From Candidatus Hydrogenedentota bacterium (GTDB lineage: Bacteria; Hydrogenedentota; Hydrogenedentia; Hydrogenedentales; CAITNO01), in the NCBI GenBank assembly GCA_012730105.1, contig JAAYBJ010000079.1, forward strand, positions 1 to 51,731: a stretch of DNA of 51,731 nt. The letters are read 5' to 3'. Shown in pieces: positions 3,250-17,830 of this stretch. The stretch's first letter is position 1, and each line of letters starts with the position of its first letter. The notes under the pieces are model-generated. The model saw only the letters and a program-made list of their open reading frames with translations, made no database searches and was not told the DNA's origin. The position numbers were made by a program, and so were the translations under genes.

Positions 3250-6200
3250 TTACGGAACTGCAACCAGCCGAAACCCGTAGTTGGTGCCCCGACCGCCCGC
3301 CGTGTAGCCGCTCCGAAACGCCGAGCGGCAGTAACTGGCGTCGCTACCCCAGCTGCCGCCCCGGACTATCCGGATCGCGGCCCTGGGCGTATCCATCCAC
3401 GCGCTCCCATCCGCCGGGGCGCCGGTGTAGCCATCGTGATAGTCGTCTTCACACCACTCGAACACGTTGCCGCTCATGTCGTAGAGCCCAAAGGTGTTCG
3501 CCGTCTTGCCGCCTACGGGATTGGTCGCGCCCGTGCTATACCAGGCATAGGCGCCGATCTCCGTATAGCCTGGATCGTCGCCCCAGTAGAACCGCGTCTG
3601 CGTGTCCGCCCGGCACGCGTACTCCCACTCTGCCTCGCTGGGCAGCCGCACGGTCAGCGGTCCCTGGCCGCTGCTTACCAGGTGCGCGTTCAGGGACGTG
3701 TTGAAATCTTGCACATCGTCCCAGGAAATGTTGTAGGCAGGATACGTGTTGCCCAGCCCCCACCCGCTGGACGGCGCCGCGCCCGGCCATGCGCCGCGCA
3801 CTGCCAGCCACTGTTGTTGCGTCACCTCGTATTTGCCCATCCAGAACCCGTACGCCAGTGTGACATCGTGCTGCGGGTCCTCACTCGATACGCTATCCAC
3901 TTCGCCCGGATAGCGGCCCATCTGGAAACTCCCGGAAGGCACCCACACCAGTTCGAGCGGCACATCCCCGGGAAGGGTAACGGTCCGCCCCGTCAATTCG
4001 ATGGTGTCGCTCACCGTCGCGGATTCCCCGCCCGCGAAACGCACCTTGAAATAGATGGTCTTCGTGCCGCCTTCACCCGAAGAAAGCGAGAAGGATGGCG
4101 CCGTATCGTAAGGTTGCCAGATTGCACCGCTGAAATCCGAAAACTCGCTCGCCATGTATTCCGTTGGCGCGCCCCAGCAGGTGTTGTTCAGCGTCACCGT
4201 CGGCAGCGTGGTGGTCGCATCGCCGTTGTTAATAGCAAACGACGTCATTCCCACCGACGGTTCCGACTTGGCAAGCCGGAACCCGAAGCTTCGGTTCATG
4301 TCCGTCGGATTGGAGGTCATTCGTTTCGCGGAACGGCTATAGTCGTGCGCGGCGAGGTAGGAACCGCCCCGAACGACGCGGCTCGAGCCTGTAGCAGGCC
4401 CCGTTGGATTCGTCATGGCTCCGCCGCTGTAGTAGGTGTTCGAGAACCGGTCGTGGCACATTTCCGAAACATTGCCGCTCATGTCATACGCCCCGACCGG
4501 GCTGGGGCTGTCCACCGTGGCCACGCTGCCGTTCGGACTGACATTGACCCCGTTAAACCACCCTGCGGGCGAGGTGTAGGGATCTGACGTCAAGCCCAGC
4601 GGATTGACGAAGCTTGGATTATGGTCGATGTAGTTCGCCCGGTCCTTACCGGTCAGCGTATCGCTGATAAAACTGTAGATCCAATGCTTTCCGCCTCCGG
4701 CGGACTCCCAGGCTGCCGCCCGTTCCCACTCCGCCTCCGTCGGCAACCGATAGCCGCCCGGTGTCGCGGGCGCTATCGTCAACGGCCACTCCGGCGAATT
4801 CATGTCGTAACACGGCGTCAGCCCCTGCCACTCGCTCAGCCAGTTGCAGAACGCTACCGCGCCGTACCAGCTCAAATGGACCATCGGGTGCGTGTCCATG
4901 GCGTAGATCGTCGTGCCCGGCAACCCCACACTGGTCTTGCTGGTAAACACACCGCCGGAATACTGGATGTGGTACGTGGACGAGAATGCCCCAATCACAT
5001 ATCGGCTGTCAGCCGTTCCGCCGGCGTAAATGAAGCCCAAACCCGTCCAAGGCGTCCCGGCAACATCCGTATACAGATACCCTTTCGCTTTCGCCCAGTT
5101 CAAGACATCGCAATACTCCTTGTTCGTCACTTCGTATTTTCCGATCTGGTAGGCTCCCAGCGTTACCTCGTGCTGCGGGAGTTCGTCGGCGGTGCCGTAC
5201 AACGCGTCATCACCGGACGCGGTACGCCCCATCGTGAAGGTCCCCGTGCCCACCGATACCGTGTCCGGCAACACGAAGATCGTGTCACTGGCGACTTCGG
5301 ACTCCTGGCCGTCCGCACCGCGCAGCTTGAAGTACACCATCCGGCCTCCGACGCCGAAGGACAGCGTAAAACTGGGCGCCGTTCCATAGGGCTGCCAAGT
5401 GGCGCCACTGAAATCCAAAGACTCGCTTGCCATGTATTCCGTCGGGCGGTTCGTGGCCGTATTGTCCAGCGTGACCAGCAAATCGGTCGTCGTGGCCGCA
5501 CCGCCATTGATGGCCAAAGACAGCACCTTGGTCGGCAAAGCGGCGAGGCGGAACCCGATGGTGTTGTACCGAAGATCCGGCGCGGAGTAGGACCGAAATG
5601 CCGAACGGCAGGTCCAGGCGTTACTGATACAGCTGCCGCCCCGGCGCATCCGGTACTCAGCCCGCGGCGAGTCCATCCACGGGCTTCCGTCGTTCGGGAC
5701 GCCGGTGTAGCTCGAATGATAGTCGTCTTCGCACCACTCATAAACGTTGCCGCTAATGTCGTACAACCCAAAGGCGTTTCCTGTCTTGCCGCCCACCGGC
5801 TTGCTGCCGTTCGGGCTGTTGTTCCCGCAATACCACATGTAGTCCGTGCGGTTGCCCGGCAATACGCCCGCTGCGCAATCCGTACACAAACCGTCACAGC
5901 CCAGGGAATCACCGAAATAGAATCGCGTGGCCGTGCCTGCCCGGCACGCATACTCCCATTCCGCCTCGCTCGGCAGCCGCACCGTTAATGGTCCCTGCCC
6001 GCTGCTCACAATGTGCGTGTTCAACGACGTGATGAAATTCTTCGTATCGTTCCACGAGACGTTGTACGCGGGATACGTATTGCCCAGTCCGTAGGTGGAG
6101 GACGGCGCCGCGCCCGGCCAGGAACCTTGCACCGCCAGCCACTGCTGCTGCGTGATCTCATACTTGCCCATCCAGAACCCATACAATAGCGTGACCGGAT

Positions 6201-9200
6201 GCTGCGGGTCTTCTTCCGCGTAGCTGTTCGCCTCGCCTGGATAGCGGCCCATCTGGAAACTGCCCGCAGGCACCCACACCAATTCGAGCGGCACATCGCC
6301 GGGAAGGGTGATGGTTCGCCAGGGTAGGTTGATGGTATCGCTCACCGGCGCAGATTCCCCTCCCGCGTTGCGTACTTTGAAATAGACGATCTTCGTGCCG
6401 CCTTCGGCGGAAGAAAGGGTAAAGGTTGGCGCCGTATCGTAAGGTTCCCAAATCGTGTCGCTGAAATCGGGCGACTCGCTCGCCATGTACTCCGTCGGGC
6501 TGTTCGTGGCCGTGTTGTCCAGCGTTACCACCGGATCGGCCGTCGCGGCTGCACCGCCGTTGAGGACGAAAGACACGACCTGGGTCGGCACCGCGGCGAT
6601 ACGGAGCCCAAGGTGATAGCCCGAATTGCCTGGCCCCCAGGTGTACCGATAGGCCGATCGGCATCTAGAAGCGTAGTAGCTCCACTCGCCTCCCCGGTAC
6701 ACCCGGGTAACGCCCCGAGGCGAATCCACCCATGCACTGCCATCCGACGGCGCACCAAGGTAGTCATAATGGCCGTCATCTTCGCACCACTCGTACACGT
6801 TGCCGCTCATGTCATACAGACCAAAGGCGTTGGGTAGTTTTCCGCCCACGGGCTTGCTTCCCCCCGGGCTGTTGTTGCCGCAGTACCACATGTAGTCCGT
6901 GCGGTTGCCCGGCAGCATGTCCGCTGCACAATCCGTACATAAGCCGTCGCAGCCCAACGAGTCACCAAAATAGAAGCGCGTGGTCGTTCCCGCCCGGGCG
7001 GCATACTCCCACTCGGCTTCACTGGGCAGCCGTACCGTCAACGGCCCCTGGCCGCTGCTCACAATATGGGCGTTAAGCGATGTGACGAAACCGCTGGCAG
7101 CGTACCACGAGACGTAATACACCGGATAGGTATCGCCCATTCCATTTGATGAATACGGCGGCAACCCCGGCCAGGACCCTTGTACCGCGAACCACTGCTG
7201 TTGTGTGATCTCGTACTTGCCCATCCAGAATCCGTACGGCATCGTCACCGGATGCTGCGGGTCTTCTCTATTACTACTGTCCGCCTCGCCCGGATACCGG
7301 CCCATCATGAAGGTCCCGCCAGGTACCCACACCAGTTCGAGGGGCACATCCCCGGGAAGGGTAATGGTCTGTCCCGTCAACTCGATGGTGTCGCTGACCG
7401 GCACCGATTCGCCTCCAGTATTGCGCACCTTGAAGTACACCGTCTTCGTGCCGCCTTCGGCGGAAGAAAGCGTGAAGGTCGGCGCCGTATCGTAGGATTG
7501 CCAGCTGGCCCCGCTGAAATCGGGCGACTCGCTGGCCATGTATTCCGTCGGCGCCCCTACGCACGTGTTGTTCAGCGTCACCACGGGATCCGCCGTTGTA
7601 GTCGCGCCATTGTTGATCGCAAAGGAAGTTACGTTGAAAGATGCGGCCAGCCGGAACCCGATCATGTCGGTTCGAAGATGCGGCAGGTAATAGTAACGAA
7701 AAGCCGAGCGGCAATTCTTAGCCGCGTACCACCAGGCGCCACCCCTGATCGTCCGGTACGAGGCCCTTGGGGAGTTAATCCAAGCGCCCCCGTCTGCCGG
7801 TGCGCCCGTGTAACTCGTGTGGTAGTCGTCATCGCACCACTCCCACATGTTGCCACTCATGTCATACAACCCAAACGCATTCACTATCTTGCTGCCCACG
7901 GGCTTGCAGCCCATCGGGCTGTTGTTGCCGTTGTACCACGCGTACATCCCCATCGCTGTATAGGTCAAATCGTCGCCCCAGTAGAAGCGGGTCTGCGTTC
8001 CTGCCCGGCATGCATACTCCCACTCTGCCTCGCTGGGCAGACGCACCGTCAATGGTCCTTGTCCGCTGCTTACAATATGCGCGTTCAGCGACGTGATGAA
8101 ATCCTTCGCGTCGTTCCATGAAATCCAATAGGCGGGATAGGTGTCGCCAATCCCGTAGGTAGCGGATGGCGCGAATTGCGGCCACGAACCGCGCACCGCC
8201 AGCCACTGTTGCTGCGTGATCTCGTACTTGCCCATCCAGAAGCCATACGCCAGCATCACCGGATGCTGCGGGTCTTCATTCGAAGCGCCGTCCAGTTCGC
8301 CCGGATAGCGGCCCATCTGGTAAGTGCCCGAAGGCACCCATACCAGATCGAGCGGTACATCGCCGGGAAGCAGGATGGTCCGCTCTTCAACCAGATTTAT
8401 GGTGTCGCTGATGGGTGCCGATTCACCCGCCGCATTGCGCACCTTGAAATACACTGTCTTCGTGCCGCCTTCGGCGGAGGAGAGCGTGAAGGTAGGCGCT
8501 GTGCCATAGGCCTGCCAGGTTGCGCCGCTGAAATCGCTCGCTTCGCTCGCCATGAATTCCGTTGCCCGGTTGTCGGTCGTATTATCCAGGGTCACCACCG
8601 GATCCGCCGTCGTGGACGCCCCCCCGTTGATGGCAAAGTCCGTCACCGTCGGAGGGAGATCCGCAGCCAGCCTGAACCCGATAAAATAACCCCGAGCGCT
8701 CGCCACGCCGGCTAACCGAGCCGCCGAGCGGCAACCGCTGGAAGAACCGTAAGCGCCGCCCCGGAAAAACCGGCTCTCGGCCCGCGGGGAGTCAATCCAC
8801 GCGCTCCCGTCCGCGGGCGCCCCGGTGTAACTCCAATGCACATCGTCTTCACACCATTCTTGCACGTTGCCGCTCATGTCGTGCAGACCAAAGGCATTCG
8901 GCAGTTTCCCGCCCACGGGCTTGGTGCCGCTCGGGCTGTTGTTGCTGTAACACCACGCATAGGTCCCAATCTCTGTGTAGGTCAGATCGTCGCCCCAGTA
9001 GAAGCGCGTCTGTGTGCTCGCCCGGCAGGAATACTCCCACTCCGCCTCACTGGGCAGCCTCAGTGCCAACGGTCCCTGGCCACTGCTCACAATATGCGCG
9101 TTCAGGGTTGTGATGAAATTCTTCGCATCATTCCAAGAAACAAAATAGGCGGGATAGGTGTCGCCGATCCCGTAGGTAGCGGATGGCGCGAATTGCGGCC

Positions 9201-9664
9201 ACGAACCGCGCACCGCCAGCCATTGCTGCTGCGTCAACTCGTACTTGCCCATCCAGAACCCGTACGCCAGCGTCACAGGATGCTGCGGGTCTTCAATATC
9301 AGAACTCTCCGCTTCGCCCGGATACCGTCCCATCTGATAACTGCCCGAAGGCACCCACACCAGATCGAGCGGTACATCGCCGGGAAGCAGGATGGTCCGC
9401 TCTTCAACCAGAGTTATGGTGTCGCTGATTGGCGCCGATTCACCCGCCGCGTTGCGTATCTTGAAGTATACCGTCTTCGTGCCGCCTTCGACCGAAGAAA
9501 GCGTGAAGGTGGGCGCCGTTTCATACGGCTGCCAGGTCGCGCCGCTGAAATCGCTTTCCTCGCTGGCCATGTATTCCGTCGGGCTGTTCATCGCGGTGTT
9601 GTCCAGCGTCACCACCGGGTCTGCTGTCGTGACCGCGTCGTTGTTGATTGTGAAGGATGCCACT
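3250..9664 (-). repeat. Six tandem coding repeats (Ig-like + FGE-like modules)
   Basis: Approximate unit borders on the plus axis: unit 1 9664-8644, unit 2 8643-7631, unit 3 7630-6581, unit 4 6580-5528, unit 5 5527-4248, unit 6 4247-3250. Units 1-4 and 6 share long near-identical stretches in DNA as well as protein (for example the GDVPL, MGKYE.TQQQW and VSSGQGPL segments), which implies recent duplication or ongoing gene conversion. Unit 5 lacks these stretches and has a longer insert with YEVTNKEYCDVLNWAK. Assembly of such a region from short reads is error-prone. Confidence 0.9.
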
Positions 9665-10017
9665 TCAGGTATTACAACCCCATCATCCGCCGTAATCAGC
9701 ACCTGCGCGTTCGGCAGGTCTTCCTCGGGATAGTCGGCGCGGATATCCCACACGATGTGGTAGCCGGTGCCTGTGGTTACGCCGGAAAGATCACCGACGA
9801 CCGACGTGACGGGATGCATAAAGCCGTCCGCGCCGCCGTCCTTGGACAGGGATACGGTAATGGCGCAGGGACCGTTCGGCGCATCAAGATCGTAGTAGAT
9901 GTCCACTTGCGTGGAAGTGGCATTGGGCACTTGGGTCATGGTGACGTTGGAGACCGTAGGGGCCTGGGCGAAAGCCCAGGAGCACGCCAGCGTCAGCACG
10001 ACAAACAAGAAGAACAT
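3250..10017 (-). CDS. Secreted protein with six tandem Ig-like + FGE/SUMF1-like modules
   Basis: A 2,255-residue protein if started at 10017, where a fresh signal peptide begins (MFFLFVVLTLACSWAFAQ). In frame it is continuous with the upstream gene (see 10018-10914). After a domain of about 100 residues containing YYDLD and HIVWD come six units of about 335-425 residues. Each unit has an Ig-like linker (TEYMASE, GGTKTVYFKVRN) and an FGE-sulfatase domain (VWVP.G.F.MGRYPGE, W..GKYE.T, RLP.EAEWE, FGLYDMSGN..EWC, RGG...CRSA.R...GFR). The cysteine pair of catalytic formylglycine-generating enzymes is not present in the expected form; only the Cys of CRSA remains, so I infer a binding or structural role using the C-type-lectin fold. 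Units 1-4 and 6 are close copies; unit 5 is longer and divergent. Confidence 0.88.
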   Translation of the reverse strand: MFFLFVVLTLACSWAFAQAPTVSNVTMTQVPNATSTQVDIYYDLDAPNGPCAITVSLSKDGGADGFMHPVTSVVGDLSGVTTGTGYHIVWDIRADYPEEDLPNAQVLITADDGVVIPEVASFTINNDAVTTADPVVTLDNTAMNSPTEYMASEESDFSGATWQPYETAPTFTLSSVEGGTKTVYFKIRNAAGESAPISDTITLVEERTILLPGDVPLDLVWVPSGSYQMGRYPGEAESSDIEDPQHPVTLAYGFWMGKYELTQQQWLAVRGSWPQFAPSATYGIGDTYPAYFVSWNDAKNFITTLNAHIVSSGQGPLALRLPSEAEWEYSCRASTQTRFYWGDDLTYTEIGTYAWCYSNNSPSGTKPVGGKLPNAFGLHDMSGNVQEWCEDDVHWSYTGAPADGSAWIDSPRAESRFFRGGAYGSSSGCRSAARLAGVASARGYFIGFRLAADLPPTVTDFAINGGASTTADPVVTLDNTTDNRATEFMASEASDFSGATWQAYGTAPTFTLSSAEGGTKTVYFKVRNAAGESAPISDTINLVEERTILLPGDVPLDLVWVPSGTYQMGRYPGELDGASNEDPQHPVMLAYGFWMGKYEITQQQWLAVRGSWPQFAPSATYGIGDTYPAYWISWNDAKDFITSLNAHIVSSGQGPLTVRLPSEAEWEYACRAGTQTRFYWGDDLTYTAMGMYAWYNGNNSPMGCKPVGSKIVNAFGLYDMSGNMWEWCDDDYHTSYTGAPADGGAWINSPRASYRTIRGGAWWYAAKNCRSAFRYYYLPHLRTDMIGFRLAASFNVTSFAINNGATTTADPVVTLNNTCVGAPTEYMASESPDFSGASWQSYDTAPTFTLSSAEGGTKTVYFKVRNTGGESVPVSDTIELTGQTITLPGDVPLELVWVPGGTFMMGRYPGEADSSNREDPQHPVTMPYGFWMGKYEITQQQWFAVQGSWPGLPPYSSNGMGDTYPVYYVSWYAASGFVTSLNAHIVSSGQGPLTVRLPSEAEWEYAARAGTTTRFYFGDSLGCDGLCTDCAADMLPGNRTDYMWYCGNNSPGGSKPVGGKLPNAFGLYDMSGNVYEWCEDDGHYDYLGAPSDGSAWVDSPRGVTRVYRGGEWSYYASRCRSAYRYTWGPGNSGYHLGLRIAAVPTQVVSFVLNGGAAATADPVVTLDNTATNSPTEYMASESPDFSDTIWEPYDTAPTFTLSSAEGGTKIVYFKVRNAGGESAPVSDTINLPWRTITLPGDVPLELVWVPAGSFQMGRYPGEANSYAEEDPQHPVTLLYGFWMGKYEITQQQWLAVQGSWPGAAPSSTYGLGNTYPAYNVSWNDTKNFITSLNTHIVSSGQGPLTVRLPSEAEWEYACRAGTATRFYFGDSLGCDGLCTDCAAGVLPGNRTDYMWYCGNNSPNGSKPVGGKTGNAFGLYDISGNVYEWCEDDYHSSYTGVPNDGSPWMDSPRAEYRMRRGGSCISNAWTCRSAFRSYSAPDLRYNTIGFRLAALPTKVLSLAINGGAATTTDLLVTLDNTATNRPTEYMASESLDFSGATWQPYGTAPSFTLSFGVGGRMVYFKLRGADGQESEVASDTIFVLPDTVSVGTGTFTMGRTASGDDALYGTADELPQHEVTLGAYQIGKYEVTNKEYCDVLNWAKAKGYLYTDVAGTPWTGLGFIYAGGTADSRYVIGAFSSTYHIQYSGGVFTSKTSVGLPGTTIYAMDTHPMVHLSWYGAVAFCNWLSEWQGLTPCYDMNSPEWPLTIAPATPGGYRLPTEAEWERAAAWESAGGGKHWIYSFISDTLTGKDRANYIDHNPSFVNPLGLTSDPYTSPAGWFNGVNVSPNGSVATVDSPSPVGAYDMSGNVSEMCHDRFSNTYYSGGAMTNPTGPATGSSRVVRGGSYLAAHDYSRSAKRMTSNPTDMNRSFGFRLAKSEPSVGMTSFAINNGDATTTLPTVTLNNTCWGAPTEYMASEFSDFSGAIWQPYDTAPSFSLSSGEGGTKTIYFKVRFAGGESATVSDTIELTGRTVTLPGDVPLELVWVPSGSFQMGRYPGEVDSVSSEDPQHDVTLAYGFWMGKYEVTQQQWLAVRGAWPGAAPSSGWGLGNTYPAYNISWDDVQDFNTSLNAHLVSSGQGPLTVRLPSEAEWEYACRADTQTRFYWGDDPGYTEIGAYAWYSTGATNPVGGKTANTFGLYDMSGNVFEWCEDDYHDGYTGAPADGSAWMDTPRAAIRIVRGGSWGSDASYCRSAFRSGYTAGGRGTNYGFRLVAVP
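3253..8778 (-). other. Six DGR variable-region-like segments, one at the end of each FGE-like module
   Basis: Approximate positions: 8680-8778, 7655-7750, 6597-6705, 5547-5652, 4265-4380 and 3253-3364. Each encodes a fixed frame RGG(7-8 residues)CRSA.R(about 7)R....GFR with nearly unrelated residues between (unit 5 has S for C). In units 1, 2, 3, 4 and 6 the codon after CRSA is gct, ttt, tat, ttt, ttt. The site four residues after the next Arg is gtg, ctg, ggg, gcg, acg. The site three further is gct, ctt, aat, ctt, ggt. Third bases are constant while first and second bases vary. The scaffold matches the lectin-fold variable regions of known DGR target proteins. No template repeat or reverse transcriptase is in the window. 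Confidence 0.55.
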
Positions 10018-10052
10018 CCCCCGGCGCTCCGCGCCACCCCCTTCAAAGGGGG
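10018..10052. repeat. REP-like double hairpin at the junction of two fused genes
   Basis: Two adjacent palindromes: CCCCC-TTCAAA-GGGGG at 10037-10052 and GGCGC-TCC-GCGCC at 10023-10035, flanked by C5 at 10018-10022. On the minus strand this abuts the ATG at 10017. The two-hairpin layout is typical of repetitive extragenic palindromes that lie between genes; here it is translated. Confidence 0.7.
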
Positions 10053-10914
10053 ACCTGGCGGCGCTTAATCCGGTAGTTCCACCCGTCCTTGCGGTCCATA
10101 CGGTCCATTCCGTCCATACCCTGGCGCCGCCAAGACGCCGCCGCCACAGTAACACCAAACCCAACATCAGCAGCAGTGCTGCCGCCCAGGGCCAACCCCA
10201 CAGCGAAAGGCCGGGTTCCGCTTCTACAATCTCCAGCAACGCAGTATTGCTCAGGGTTCCAATATTACCCGCCAGGTCCGCACCGGAAATGTGAATCACC
10301 GCCATGCCCAGCGGATCGCTTTCCTGCACTTCATATTCGAAGATATACCCTTCCGCCTTACCGTAGGGCGCGGTGGCCGGATGTCCGTTTATAGTCACTT
10401 CCGGATCAGTTTGAAGCGTTTCGGATACGGCAAAGGTAATCGTAACTTTCTCGCCCAACCCCGCTTTGGGCGGCATCACCATCAGGTCACTGAATACCGG
10501 CGCCGCGCCCATGCCCGCACAGGACGCACTGTTCGCCGCAGGGTCAATAGGATTACCAAAGGCATCCTGCACGCCTGACACCGTAAGCGTGAGCGAAACG
10601 CCGTCGCGCATTTCGCCAGCCGCCCAGTCAAGGGTGAAGACCGACGGACCACCTGACACGCCTGTGGGCGACGGGACCAGTGTACCCGCACCCAGGCCTG
10701 ACACTACATAATTATTCGGAGTAGTGCCGCCTGGAGCAAGCATGGTTTCGCTGAAGCTCGCCGAAAGGCTTTTATCCGTAATCGACGACACCGATTGCAA
10801 CGCGGGCGATACTGTCTCCAAGGGTGTCACCGCCGAAGTACCGCTGCCCGTCAGCGCTGTCGCTGTAAAAGAAAAACACACCATTAGCCCACTCATGAAA
10901 ATTTTAAATAGCAT
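10018..10914 (-). CDS. Secreted Ig-like protein with PEP-CTERM-like tail, fused in frame to the FGE-like gene
   Basis: The first 299 codons of a single 2,554-codon frame. It has a strong ribosome site (AAAGGAGG, six bases before ATG at 10914), a signal peptide (about residues 1-21), a SwmB/Big-like domain (about 30-125: NNYVVSG, LTVSGVQDAFGNP) and a second Ig-like domain (about 138-230). Residues 232-263 form a sorting-type tail: EPGLSLWGW, a hydrophobic helix, then WRRR. A protein should end about here, but no stop follows. Instead the frame runs through residues 264-299, whose DNA is 9-base repeats plus a palindrome, into a second signal peptide at residue 300. Whether the cell makes one fused protein or two cannot be told from sequence. 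A lost stop codon or an insertion is the likely cause. Confidence 0.7.
10078..10116. repeat. Short tandem 9-base repeats
   Basis: On the minus strand four units read TGGACGGAA, TGGACCGTA, TGGACCGCA, AGGACGGGT. They encode the WT-x triplets WTE, WTV, WTA and RTG. This is intergenic-type simple repeat DNA included in the open frame between the PEP-CTERM-like tail and the next signal peptide. Confidence 0.7.
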
Positions 10915-13095: not shown

Positions 13096-14355
13096 TCAAC
13101 TCAAGGATTCCACCCCGAACACAGTGGCCAGCAGAAGGCCGACCACGGCCAGGATGCCCAGGAAAAGATTGCCCCAGTCCTTGAGATCAAAGGAGTCGCA
13201 TGCGGTGAGACAATCGCCCTCGGAAATGACCAGGCTTACCGGATACCCCGATACAGCGGTGGCGCCAGCGGCGGGATTCTGCCGGATCACCGCCCCTGCG
13301 GGAACCTGATTATTGCATTTGTAACTCACCGCGCCAAGAGTCAGGCCGGCCGCTGCTATTTGCGCGGTGGCGCCTTCCAACGTTTGCAATACCACATCGG
13401 GCACGGTGACATTGACCACCTCTTCACCTTCAACAGATTCCCCTTCGCCCTCACCTTCCCCTTCCCCTTCGCCTTCGTCTTCGCCTTCGCCTTCATCCTC
13501 CCCTTCAGCTTCGCCCTCTGTCGACTCCCCTTCGTCGGCTTCCCCTTCAGCGGCTTCACCCTCCGCGGGCGCTTCACCCTCGACCATTTCGCCCTCCGCA
13601 TCCTTTACCGCAAAGTGGGCCGTAACGGAAATATTCTTCTTCACATTGGTGTCCTGGCGCGGATTATCGGTAAGCCCGTCGCCCCATACGACAAAGAGAT
13701 ACCCTGTATTCGCTTCCGCACTGACCGGCAACCCGCTCCCCCCGTGGTTGACCACTTGTGCCGCCGGACCTTCGATCATGCCGCCCGGTCCGGCACTGTA
13801 ATTCAGAATATAGGTGTTGATCGTGAAATTCGCTTTAACATCGATGTTCTCCGTGACATTTATATCCGTTCTTGGATTATCCGTTAACGCATCACTCCAC
13901 ACGGAAAAGCTAAACCCCTCTTTCGCAACAGCCGCGACCTCGCTTCCATCCCCGCCATGCTCCACGGTCTGCGGCGTCTGGCCGAAGATGGTCCCCCCAC
14001 CGCCGGCGCTGTACGACAAGGTATAAATATTGACGGCAAAATTCGCGGTAACACTGATATTGGCGGTCACGTTGATATCGGTCCTCGGATTATCCGTAAC
14101 GCCGTCGCTCCATCCGGCGAAATGATAGCCGTCATTGGCCACAGCCGTGACCGGCTGGCCATTGCCGCCGGAGGAGGACACAGTCTGAGCAACCAGACCT
14201 TCCAGCACCCCATTTTCGCCCGCAAGGTAGATCAGAGCAAAGTCGGCCTTTTCTAGGCCGGTCTCATCGGTGGCCATGGCTTCCGGACCCGCCGGCACCA
14301 TGGCGAGGGCTGTCAACAAAACCAGCATGACTTTTCCGTAAAGGGGGGTATACAT
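13096..14355 (-). CDS. Secreted InlB-repeat/PASTA protein with C-terminal membrane tail (small paralog)
   Basis: A 419-residue surface protein started at 14355, where AAAGGAG sits nine bases upstream; an in-frame ATG at 14388 lacks this site. It has a signal peptide ending near PEAMA. Three InlB_B/'bacterial repeat' units of about 70 residues follow (LxYSAGxxG, VxxGGxGxxVxAxAxxGYxFxxWSD, TDNPRTDxNV). Then come a Glu-Gly-rich spacer of about 70 residues, a PASTA-like domain (VPDVVLQTLEGATAQIAAAG, VPAGAVIRQNPAAG) and a tail: two Cys (CLTACDSF), DWGNLFLGILAV, a hydrophobic helix. The larger gene upstream (14786-17830) has the same order and tail. The acidic spacer probably spans the envelope. 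Function unknown; adhesion or matrix role inferred. Confidence 0.8.
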   Translation of the reverse strand: MYTPLYGKVMLVLLTALAMVPAGPEAMATDETGLEKADFALIYLAGENGVLEGLVAQTVSSSGGNGQPVTAVANDGYHFAGWSDGVTDNPRTDINVTANISVTANFAVNIYTLSYSAGGGGTIFGQTPQTVEHGGDGSEVAAVAKEGFSFSVWSDALTDNPRTDINVTENIDVKANFTINTYILNYSAGPGGMIEGPAAQVVNHGGSGLPVSAEANTGYLFVVWGDGLTDNPRQDTNVKKNISVTAHFAVKDAEGEMVEGEAPAEGEAAEGEADEGESTEGEAEGEDEGEGEDEGEGEGEGEGEGESVEGEEVVNVTVPDVVLQTLEGATAQIAAAGLTLGAVSYKCNNQVPAGAVIRQNPAAGATAVSGYPVSLVISEGDCLTACDSFDLKDWGNLFLGILAVVGLLLATVFGVESLS

Positions 14356-14785
14356 AATCGGCAGCTCCTTTTCAGCAGTACGATTCACGGATGATAACCG
14401 TGCGCGCAGATATCACCTAGTTATGCCTCCCCGGGGAGGATCACGGGAAAGGATTTCCGGGGCAACCCTCCTGACCGGTCGGCAAGGATTTCTTCATCAT
14501 ACAAGACAACGGGAAGCCTATCGGCTACATCCCATCAAAAAACACGGATGCGGGCCTTCCAAGGCTACCCTCCTTGGGATAGTAGGGAAGATTAACCCGC
14601 CGATTCAACTTCTTTTTGTCATTTTTACATTATGAAATATAATACTAAATAATAAAATCACCCTGGTTCACTCCAAGATATCTTCAGGTTTTATACGACC
14701 TGCACGCGAATAGTTCCCGTCCGTGGCCTGTAAAAAGCATTGCGGCCTGCCGCTTCAGTAAAGGGGCAGGCCGCATGTAAACAGG
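14356..14785. other. Long, possibly structured leader of the small InlB-repeat/PASTA gene
   Basis: About 430 bases. From 14640 to 14700 it is A/T-rich and promoter-like for the minus strand (TATTATTTAGTATTATATTT). From there to the start is about 280 bases of GC-rich DNA with several short inverted repeats (14426-14439 palindrome CCTCCCCGGGGAGG; 14559-14564 with 14572-14577). I compared it by memory with c-di-GMP-I, cobalamin and ykkC riboswitches and found no match. The terminator of the next gene lies at 14732-14775. Confidence 0.4.
14732..14775 (-). terminator. Intrinsic terminator of the beta-helix/InlB-repeat gene
   Basis: TGCGGCCTGCC (14741-14751) pairs perfectly with 14765-14775 around a 13-base loop. 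On the minus strand a T5 tract follows four bases later. It lies just past the stop at 14786. Confidence 0.75.
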
Positions 14786-17700
14786 TTATTTCGGAAATCC
14801 GCCGCCGCCACCAAGGGCGAACAGGCTGATCACGAGCAGTACAATGACAGCGAGGAGGCCCAGGAACAGGTCGCCCCAGTTGAACGAACAGAAGGCACCG
14901 CAGGAGCAGGGGCACTCGCCGGTGGAAACGACCAGGTCGACCGGCGCGAGAGGCTCTACAATGGTTCCCGCGACAGGGGCTTGCTCAATCACAGCGCCTT
15001 CAGGAACCTCGTCGCTGCATTCCTGGTAAATGTTGCCCACCACCAGGCCCGCATCGGTTATGCGGCGTCCGGCCTCTTCCAGGGTCAGGAGCACCACGTC
15101 AGGCGCCAGGAGGATATCTTCTCCCTCGCCTTCACCCTCGACCGGGTCTTGCGCAAAATGAGCGATGACAGCGATGTCGCCCGTCACGTTGGCATCGGTT
15201 CTCGGATTAGCAGTTATACCGTCGTTCCATTGCACGAAGTGGTATCCTGCCGCAGGGATCGCGGTTACCGCTTCACCACTGGCGCCATGGGCCACTGTCT
15301 GTGGTGAAGGCCCGGACACGGAGCCGTTCAGACCGGCTGTATACGTCAGGGTGTACTGGTTTATGGCGAAATTCGCCGTCACACGGATATCACCGGTGAT
15401 GTTCGCGTCAGTTCTCGGATTGGCCGTGCCACCGTCACTCCAATCTACAAAATGATAGCCCTCCGCTGGTACGGCGGTCACCGCCTCACCGCTGCCGCCA
15501 TAGGGCACGGTTTGCGGCGAAGGTCCGGAGAGGGTTCCATTTTCACCGGCACCGTAAGTTAAGGTGTAGGTATTGATGGCAAAGTTCGCGGTCACGGCTA
15601 TCGGACCCGTCACTGCGATATCCGTCCTCGGGTTGGCTGTGCCAGCGTCGCTCCAGTCCACGAAATGGTAACCGGTGGCGGGTATTGCGGTCACCGGCTG
15701 TCCATCGCCGCCGTGAGCCACCTCCTGCGGTGAAAGGCCATCGACCGAACCGTTCGGACCGGCCGTGTAAGTCAGCACATAGACGTTGATGGCGAAATTC
15801 GCCGTCACCGACACGGGGCCGGTGACATTCGCATCGGTGCGCGGGTTGTCGGTGCGGCTGTCGCTCCAGTCCACAAAATGGTAGCCGTACTCGGGCACGG
15901 CGGTAACCGGCGCGCCGTTGCTGCCATGGTTCACCTCCTGGGGTGAGGGCCCTTCAATTGCGCCGTTCGGACCCGCCGCGTAAGTCAGCGTATAGGTGTT
16001 AAGTTCAAAGAGGGCGGTGACGGTGAGATCCTCGAAAACATCCACATCGGTCCTGGGATTGTTCGTCAGGCCGTCACTCCAGCGCAGGAAGTGATATCCT
16101 TCGGCGGGAACAGCCGTTACAGCAGTGCCGTCATAACTATAAAACACGGTCTGTTCCGCATCGCCCTCGATGGCGCCGCCCTCGCCCGCCAGGTAGGTCA
16201 GCGTGTAGGACCCGTAAATAACCGTGTTGTCCGTACTAGTGGATGCGCCATTAAGGTTTCCGGCGGCATCCTGACAGACGCCGGCCACGATATTGGCGAT
16301 GACCGTACCGGGATTAGCCATACCTGTGACAGCAACGTCATACACGGCACCCGATCCCGTGACCGTGCCCATACCGGCCCCGGCCGTGCCGCTCAACGAC
16401 ACATCGCCTGTTTCAAAACCCATGATAGGCTCGCTGAAAACCACCGTGAACAGGACAGGACTGTCATTCGTGGGATCCGCCTGCGCCTCCGCCTGGTCAA
16501 TCGTCACTGTCGGCGGTGTGGTATCCATTTCATAAGCGCCCATGTCGTGGCCGCCGCCCTGGGGCCTGGCGACACCGAGGATATCCGAGCCCGGCGCCCC
16601 TGTGGCGGTGCCCGCGTCCAGGCAGGGAGATCCTTCCCGCAGACTCACGATGCCCGCCACATCCGTAAACAGGGGGTCGGCATCGATATTGCCTTCCCCG
16701 GCATAGCCGCCCTCAATGCAACTGAAGGTAATAACCGGCGTGCCGCCGTCCACATCCGCTTTTCCCGGGGTTTCCATCTCCACGTTGCCCCATATAATGC
16801 AGTTGGTCACCACCGGCGAGGCGCTCTGACTGAACAGGCCGCCGCCGAAAAGAACCGCCGTATTTTTATAAATGGTGCAATTGGTCACGACAGGCGCATT
16901 CCGGTTGCTGTACAAGCCGCCGCCGTAACCGGTTTCGGCCAGATTGTCCAAAAAAATGCAATTGGTCACCACCGGCGAAGCGAAGTTATTGTACATGCCG
17001 CCGCCGTCATCAAAAGCGGTGTTCTTGGTGAACTCACAATTGGCAACGATGGTATTGACGTTGCTGTTGTACATGCCGCCGCCATCCTCGGTGGCCATGT
17101 TCTGGATGAAGGCGCAATTGGTAACGATCACCGTGCCTTCACTGTTGTACATGCCCCCGCCATAATCGGCATAGCCCCGTATAATCAAAAAGCCGTCGAT
17201 CCGGGCGGCGTCCGCCCCGACAACCCCCCGTCGTTGATCATTGGCAAAAAGCATGGTGATGTTGCCTCTCCAATCCCGCTGTTCCCGGACGGTTTCCGTG
17301 CCCGCGAAACCGCCATAGACCGCCACGCCCGCTTTGAGGGTCAGGACCGCGCTGGCCTCGCTGGTATAGACTCCCGCGGCAACCCACACTTCATCGCCGG
17401 CCTGCGCCTGATCGACCATGGCCTGAAGATTGCCCGCGTTTTCCCAGGAACTGCCGTCGCCCGTCCCGCTTAGTTTCACGAAATATACGGTCCCCGCAGG
17501 AGCATCGTCCGCCGACCCCACAGAAAAGTTCGCGATCACAGCCAGCGGCGCGTCACCGGCGGTATCCAAACGGACCGCAGCGGTCGAACCGTCACTCCAG
17601 TCCACGAAGCGATATCCCGGGACGGGTATGGCGACCACCGCCGTGCCGTCCGCACCGGGCAGGACAGACTGACGGATCGCGCCCAGGATATAGCCCCCCG

Positions 17701-17830
17701 GCCCGGCGCTATAGGTCAAGGCAACGGGATCTATTTTATCCTGTGCCCCGGCATATCCCGGCACCGCAAGGCCTGTCGCGATCACAGCAACAAGCAACAT
17801 CCCTGTGAAGACGGATTTTAACGCATACAT
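14786..17830 (-). CDS. Secreted parallel beta-helix/InlB-repeat/PASTA protein with C-terminal membrane tail
   Basis: A 1,014-residue surface protein. AAGGAG nine bases upstream fixes the start. Order: signal peptide (about 1-29); one InlB-type repeat (37-105); a right-handed beta-helix (about 115-440) with repeated GGGMYN/GGGLYS and VTNCxFxxN turns and ending LGVARPQGGGHDMGAYE, the layout of 'choice-of-anchor' pectate-lyase-fold proteins; a Big-like domain (about 445-540: TPPTVTIDQ, FSEPIMGFETGDV); five tandem InlB-type repeats of about 70 residues (LTYxAGxNG, GYHFVDWSD, NPRTDxNVTGxIxVTANFAIN); a short EGEGEGE spacer; a PASTA-like domain; Cys-rich CPCSCGAFC; and the tail NWGDLFLGLLAV plus a hydrophobic helix. 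The five repeats are very alike in DNA. A polysaccharide-binding or adhesin role is inferred; no catalytic residues were recognised. Confidence 0.85.
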   Translation of the reverse strand: MYALKSVFTGMLLVAVIATGLAVPGYAGAQDKIDPVALTYSAGPGGYILGAIRQSVLPGADGTAVVAIPVPGYRFVDWSDGSTAAVRLDTAGDAPLAVIANFSVGSADDAPAGTVYFVKLSGTGDGSSWENAGNLQAMVDQAQAGDEVWVAAGVYTSEASAVLTLKAGVAVYGGFAGTETVREQRDWRGNITMLFANDQRRGVVGADAARIDGFLIIRGYADYGGGMYNSEGTVIVTNCAFIQNMATEDGGGMYNSNVNTIVANCEFTKNTAFDDGGGMYNNFASPVVTNCIFLDNLAETGYGGGLYSNRNAPVVTNCTIYKNTAVLFGGGLFSQSASPVVTNCIIWGNVEMETPGKADVDGGTPVITFSCIEGGYAGEGNIDADPLFTDVAGIVSLREGSPCLDAGTATGAPGSDILGVARPQGGGHDMGAYEMDTTPPTVTIDQAEAQADPTNDSPVLFTVVFSEPIMGFETGDVSLSGTAGAGMGTVTGSGAVYDVAVTGMANPGTVIANIVAGVCQDAAGNLNGASTSTDNTVIYGSYTLTYLAGEGGAIEGDAEQTVFYSYDGTAVTAVPAEGYHFLRWSDGLTNNPRTDVDVFEDLTVTALFELNTYTLTYAAGPNGAIEGPSPQEVNHGSNGAPVTAVPEYGYHFVDWSDSRTDNPRTDANVTGPVSVTANFAINVYVLTYTAGPNGSVDGLSPQEVAHGGDGQPVTAIPATGYHFVDWSDAGTANPRTDIAVTGPIAVTANFAINTYTLTYGAGENGTLSGPSPQTVPYGGSGEAVTAVPAEGYHFVDWSDGGTANPRTDANITGDIRVTANFAINQYTLTYTAGLNGSVSGPSPQTVAHGASGEAVTAIPAAGYHFVQWNDGITANPRTDANVTGDIAVIAHFAQDPVEGEGEGEDILLAPDVVLLTLEEAGRRITDAGLVVGNIYQECSDEVPEGAVIEQAPVAGTIVEPLAPVDLVVSTGECPCSCGAFCSFNWGDLFLGLLAVIVLLVISLFALGGGGGFPK
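15150..16230 (-). repeat. Five tandem coding repeats of about 210 bases
   Basis: The InlB-type units of the beta-helix protein are near-copies of one another (GYHFVDWSD, NPRTDANVTG, VTANFAIN). Unit number could easily vary by recombination between strains. Confidence 0.8.

Follow-up and report, generated by a model that had tools for sequence, protein, structure and literature searches.

The window, that is, the whole stretch of 51,731 nucleotides that was analysed, is the entire contig C23 of a host assembly of 5.63 Mb in 343 contigs (98% complete). It encodes a long exported protein with six tandem modules, each of which ends in residues that vary from module to module. The question raised by this locus is whether these segments were written by a diversity-generating retroelement (DGR) and, in that case, whether they are still being rewritten.

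The array protein and its modules

The PF03781 (FGE-sulfatase) profile matched six stretches of the 2554-aa protein above the gathering score (878 bits), and every module closes with the scaffold RGG..CRSA..GFR, with the variable residues in between; in unit 5 the CRSA element is SRSA. Units 1–4 and 6 are of one type and unit 5 is of a longer FGE (formylglycine-generating enzyme) type. The original prediction had placed six segments of constant scaffold and variable residues at the module ends, and its coordinates were correct (Table 1). Around positions 9930-10210 (about residues 235-325 of the array ORF) the Ig-like part ends in a membrane helix resembling a sorting signal (PLWGWPWAAALLLMLGLVLLWRRR-like), and a second stretch resembling a signal peptide (MFFLFVVLTLACSWAFAQ) lies in frame after the helix, a layout that is similar in the relatives. 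Two repeat proteins in the neighbourhood of the array, at 13096-17830 of the window, carry PASTA domains and repeats of the InlB-B type.

Table 1. Array ORF of the window, its six variable segments, and one type of sister-genome template.
Feature	Position	Strand	Description
Array ORF	3250..10914	(-)	2554 aa, exported; Ig-like part at the N-terminus, followed by six FGE-sulfatase/C-type-lectin modules with linkers between them
Unit 1 variable segment	8671..8763	(-)	RGGAYGSSSGCRSAARLAGVASARGYFIGFR; residues as in G002
Unit 2 variable segment	7651..7746	(-)	3′ template-matching block kept over 21 nt; 16 non-A mismatches with the best template, which is background level
Unit 3 variable segment	6601..6696	(-)	Non-A mismatches at background level; residues as in G026
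Unit 4 variable segment	5548..5643	(-)	Internal; compared with the G003:C7 template
Unit 5 variable segment	4276..4371	(-)	Long FGE module type; without clear template
Unit 6 variable segment	3268..3363	(-)	C-terminal; 18/29 template A sites changed
G003:C35-type template			AACAACAACGCCAGGAACTGCCGGTCGGCGTATCGGAACAACAACACGCCGGACAATCGG

By profile and model matches, the C-type-lectin/FGE fold that bears the variable segment is present in the array modules. The AlphaFold2 model of unit 6 had a mean pLDDT of 77.5 (about 56-84 within the variable segment), and its best fold matches were PvdO and TvpA (PDB 2Y3C), a DGR variable protein from Treponema denticola with the same fold as the array modules (unit 6 versus TvpA: Foldseek E 2e-14, phmmer E 6.5e-22). 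Fold and module sequence are also common to the formylglycine-generating enzyme/PvdO family (PF03781) and the array, but the column of the catalytic Cys336 of FGE is variable in the array modules. When unit 4 was aligned with human FGE, this column held a Ser, located among the variable residues, and the catalytic cysteine pair was absent. Considering that the Cys336 column falls inside the variable residues, this alignment makes it unlikely that the modules are formylglycine-generating enzymes.

The proposal of a DGR was based on codons that differ in their first two bases and keep the third. Our recount gave the same figure, 31 of 35 agreeing third bases, for seven sites (columns 16, 18, 19, 20, 21, 24, and 26 after RGG), which had, however, been picked after the fact. 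Over the whole variable segment of units 1, 2, 3, 4, and 6, the third base was kept in 50% of the codons with a change in the first or second base, compared with 45% for the module bodies, and the ratio of first/second- to third-base changes was 1.02, against a median of 0.41 and a maximum of 1.00 in body blocks. The third-base signal obtained from the window units is present but weak and could come from selection; being too weak to decide (50% versus 45%), these statistics were set aside as proof of a DGR. The template codons that had been deduced, AAY and AAG, were partly wrong: the matching templates described below read ACG at the supposed AAG site and TAT at the site following CRSA.

DGR cassettes in the host and matching templates in sister genomes

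The host genome contains four RVT_1 reverse transcriptases (RTs), all with the DGR-type motif GNLTSQ, two Avd equivalogs above the cut-off (in C68 and C316), a weaker bAvd match in C16, and three N-rich templates of FGE C-termini (C68, C316, and C178). The RTs and Avd genes are on contigs other than the window and are paired with other templates. In the complete cassette of C68, target and template differ at 22 adenines and at no other base. None of the three host templates fits the window units, which showed 15-28 mismatches at template positions other than adenine (non-A mismatches); the lowest counts were those of unit 6 (15) and unit 4 (16), and assignment of the units to C68, C316, or C178 was ruled out by these values. 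A BLAST search of the host assembly with a template guessed from the units as query returned no closer one. The remote machinery that the original prediction had assumed as the alternative to a past DGR does exist in this genome, and the genome search that it proposed returned both RTs and templates, but none of them matches the window units and a template differing from these only at adenines was not found. A cassette could be missing from the 343-contig assembly. Since no host template fits, the link with a DGR leans on templates of other genomes.

Among the host FGE loci found, the C316 and C178 templates (loci L036 and L037) have no intact cognate target; none came to ≤13% non-A mismatch. 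The C316 cassette also has an IS200-like (Y1) transposase ORF between Avd and RT (L036:3466-4071(+)), and another such ORF lies beside the array of genome G026 (L104:3919-4524(-)); these transposases might aid the movement of DGR modules.

Templates fitting the window units were found in the sister genomes at G003:C7, G003:C35, G002:C251, and CALHGX010000068.1, and they encode 22 residues, [DG], and 12 further residues. CALHGX010000068.1 carries a full cassette with its matching template. The template of G002, a genome of the same genus, has 124 nt identical to that of G003:C35 and sits at a contig end, so such cassettes are easily cut by assembly. The stand-alone cassettes of CALHGX010000068.1, G003:C7, and G003:C35 are near the window units in module sequence and template scaffold, and the targets of CALHGX010000068.1 and G003:C7 have 81% amino acid identity to unit 4. 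Unlike the window array, the sister stand-alone targets with a found variable region (VR) have a single C-terminal VR and match their template perfectly at non-A sites.

Compared with the G003:C7 template, unit 4 was changed at 17 of 29 A sites and at 5 of 67 non-A sites (p=2e-7); for unit 6 and its sister-genome template the values were 18/29 and 6/67 (p=1e-7). Unit 4 of the G002 array behaved similarly, with 19 A and 5 non-A mismatches. Taking as non-A fraction the lowest value across 19 templates, units 4 and 6 had 7% and 9%, whereas units 1, 2, 3, and 5 had 24-29%, which is the level of general FGE homologues; 21 segments of distant FGE homologues were mostly at 23-57%, with 3 of the 21 at 9-12%, and six cognate template-target pairs had no non-A mismatches at all. 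The hypergeometric p overstates certainty because the template adenines fall in codons that are free to vary in the family, and values as low as p=1e-6 were also given by FGE homologues whose non-A mismatch is high, so that p by itself was dropped as proof of a DGR. The real evidence for units 4 and 6 is their low non-A count and not the p-values. At the level of these alignments, both units show adenine bias against sister-genome templates, while units 1, 2, 3, and 5 may be FGE paralogues of the ordinary kind. DGR writing is thereby supported for the two units that differ mostly at adenines (17/5 and 18/6); the remaining four lack a clear adenine fingerprint.

Relatives of the array and age of the segments

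A tandem relative, G036:C136 (1642 aa, three modules, two of the segments internal), shows fresh adenine bias. Against sister-genome templates its A/non-A mismatches were 13/2, 15/0, and 14/1, and its modules kept the third base in 39 of 39 changed variable codons, in comparison with 41 of 57 in the bodies; third-base mismatch was lower inside the segment than outside it for two of the three pairs (p=0.012, 0.046, and 0.42). These segments may have been written in place or at a time when each module was terminal. The G036 assembly did not yield a template matching this array. In G060:C27 (1600 aa) the terminal segment had 19 A and 0 non-A mismatches against a template on another contig, and the internal segments were eroded (16-18 non-A mismatches).

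The neighbours of the window array, an M28 peptidase gene and xylA, were not found beside the arrays of G002, G026, and G036, and synteny was therefore dropped as a mark of vertical descent. Sequence identity is mosaic. Taking both observations into account, modules or whole arrays appear to move. The array of G026 (L104, G026:C9) is closely related to that of the window, with unit 3 about 97% identical in DNA; G026 belongs to another family and gave no RVT_1 match. A transfer of array sequence between the family of the window lineage and that of G026 is probable.

Concerning the age of the segments, third-base mismatches against the stand-alone DGR target G003:C406 were 4/32 in the segment and 97/215 in the body for unit 6 (p=2e-4), and 6/32 and 83/206 for unit 4 (p=0.013); in units 1-3 the third bases were not better matched in the segment than in the body when compared with a stand-alone DGR target. 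When relatives were compared at the variable sites, as the original prediction had suggested, some units were identical and others had changed mainly inside the segment. In G002 the residues of units 1 and 2 are unchanged, and the DNA around them is about 97-100% identical. This identity of several units between species does not speak for current DGR activity. Against G026, base-1/2 differences were found in 12 of 24 segment codons and 3 of 54 flank codons of unit 1, and in 11 of 25 and 1 of 52 of unit 5, with no significant third-base excess in either; judged from these codons, this is localised diversification, by a DGR or by selection. A 22-nt 3′ block common to the cognate template-target pairs (IMH-like; ATCGGGTTCCGSYTGGCCGCAG) is kept over 21 nt in unit 2, and its longest exact run in the other units is 5-13 nt.

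Origin of the array and comparison with known systems

We consider it probable that the locus is an array of DGR-target modules, partly fossil, which makes up a multivalent exported binding protein, with units 4 and 6 written by a DGR and the rest eroded, older, or derived from other templates. The array would have arisen as FGE-fold modules of the DGR-diversified kind were duplicated and recombined. The DGR reverse transcriptase and Avd would copy the template RNA with randomised adenines, and the cDNA would then take the place of the homologous variable segment in an FGE module. In units 4 and 6 the segments would have been written from a template of the sister-genome type and would later have gained ordinary substitutions, and units 1, 2, 3, and 5 may be of greater age, may have eroded, or may stem from templates that the searches did not return. 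The writing presumably took place in trans or before the modules entered the array. As matching machinery was found only in related genomes, the array looks largely relic, and in the host genome it is now probably a relic for the greater part and not a set of six live hypervariable sites. Its protein would bind variable ligands outside the cytoplasm.

It is unlikely that the modules are ordinary FGE-fold paralogues whose surface loops diverged by diversifying selection and intermodule recombination, with no DGR involved. Third-base retention among the window units barely above that of the module body, the position of units 1, 2, 3, and 5 within the range of general FGE homologues at non-A sites, and the fact that positive selection also yields an excess of first- and second-base change would all be consistent with such paralogues. 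Nevertheless, the 5-6 non-A mismatches of units 4 and 6 are under those of nearly all distant FGE homologues, their third bases are more conserved in the segment than in the body, and closely similar modules are the stand-alone targets adjoining RT and template in sister genomes.

We assign little probability to the possibility that a trans-acting DGR of the host still writes all six segments and that its cassette was missed by the fragmented assembly. The four DGR RTs of the host, the contig-end position of the matching template in the same-genus G002, and the published trans action on several VRs per protein (PMC10907252) favour it, but the window units carry 5-19 non-A mismatches where cognate targets have none, units 1-3 are unchanged between species with flanks about 97-100% identical, five of the six units have a degraded 3′ block, and a 98% complete genome yielded no matching RT or template. 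It is very improbable that only the C-terminal module was ever written, with tandem duplication shifting written modules inward, where they froze and eroded. Roux et al. attribute the C-terminal location of VRs to cis elements required downstream for retrohoming (PMC8144416), and G060:C27, with its fresh terminal and eroded internal segments, agrees with such a process; against it, internal and terminal units are equally fresh in G036:C136 (2, 0, and 1 non-A), window unit 4 is internal yet less eroded than most, and the units do not become steadily more eroded on the way to the N-terminus.

In Treponema denticola, FGE-type DGR targets reportedly have one C-terminal VR each. Such targets have been left over in strains without a cassette, and 19 of the 21 changes of a leftover target relative to the template of another strain type were at adenines (PMC4891356). 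Proteins with several VR-bearing CLec domains, as in the window array, are known from DGR 4 and DGR 5 of Thiohalocapsa PB-PSB1, with three tandem domains in the target (Dore et al. 2024, PMC10907252). At non-A sites these VRs agree throughout with the template of another locus, DGR 2, so they were probably diversified in trans; the DGR 5 target is probably secreted (PMC10907252). The PB-PSB1 target differs in its vWA domain, its conflict system, and its perfect non-A match, whereas the window array has six modules of two FGE types and no perfect template. The scan of its neighbourhood, which covered few genes, gave no recognisable conflict system. In the window protein the VR-bearing domains do not each match a template at non-A sites; G036:C136 comes near to this, with 2, 0, and 1 mismatches to templates of other genomes. 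Given these three tandem domains and an already published set of 31 DGRs in which a single ORF holds several VRs (PMC6642488), the claim that several internal VRs are unprecedented was too strong. We found no description in the literature of six variable modules in one protein of this kind, and none of DGRs in Hydrogenedentes/Hydrogenedentota, where one unrelated retroelement paper was retrieved.

The array extends tandem DGR targets to six modules and two FGE module types in one protein, and to what related genomes indicate to be Candidatus Hydrogenedentota. There is a small chance that it is a working record of past binding specificities, in which DGR-written modules persist through tandem duplication and pass from lineage to lineage, with internal sites that are sometimes still writable, as in G036:C136; if this were true, one exported protein would show several fixed generations of DGR-made binding sites. 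The array family, from fresh (G036:C136) to eroded (the window), is a testbed for whether DGRs can write internal coding sites, which bears on the view that C-terminal VRs reflect the need for a downstream cis element (PMC8144416).
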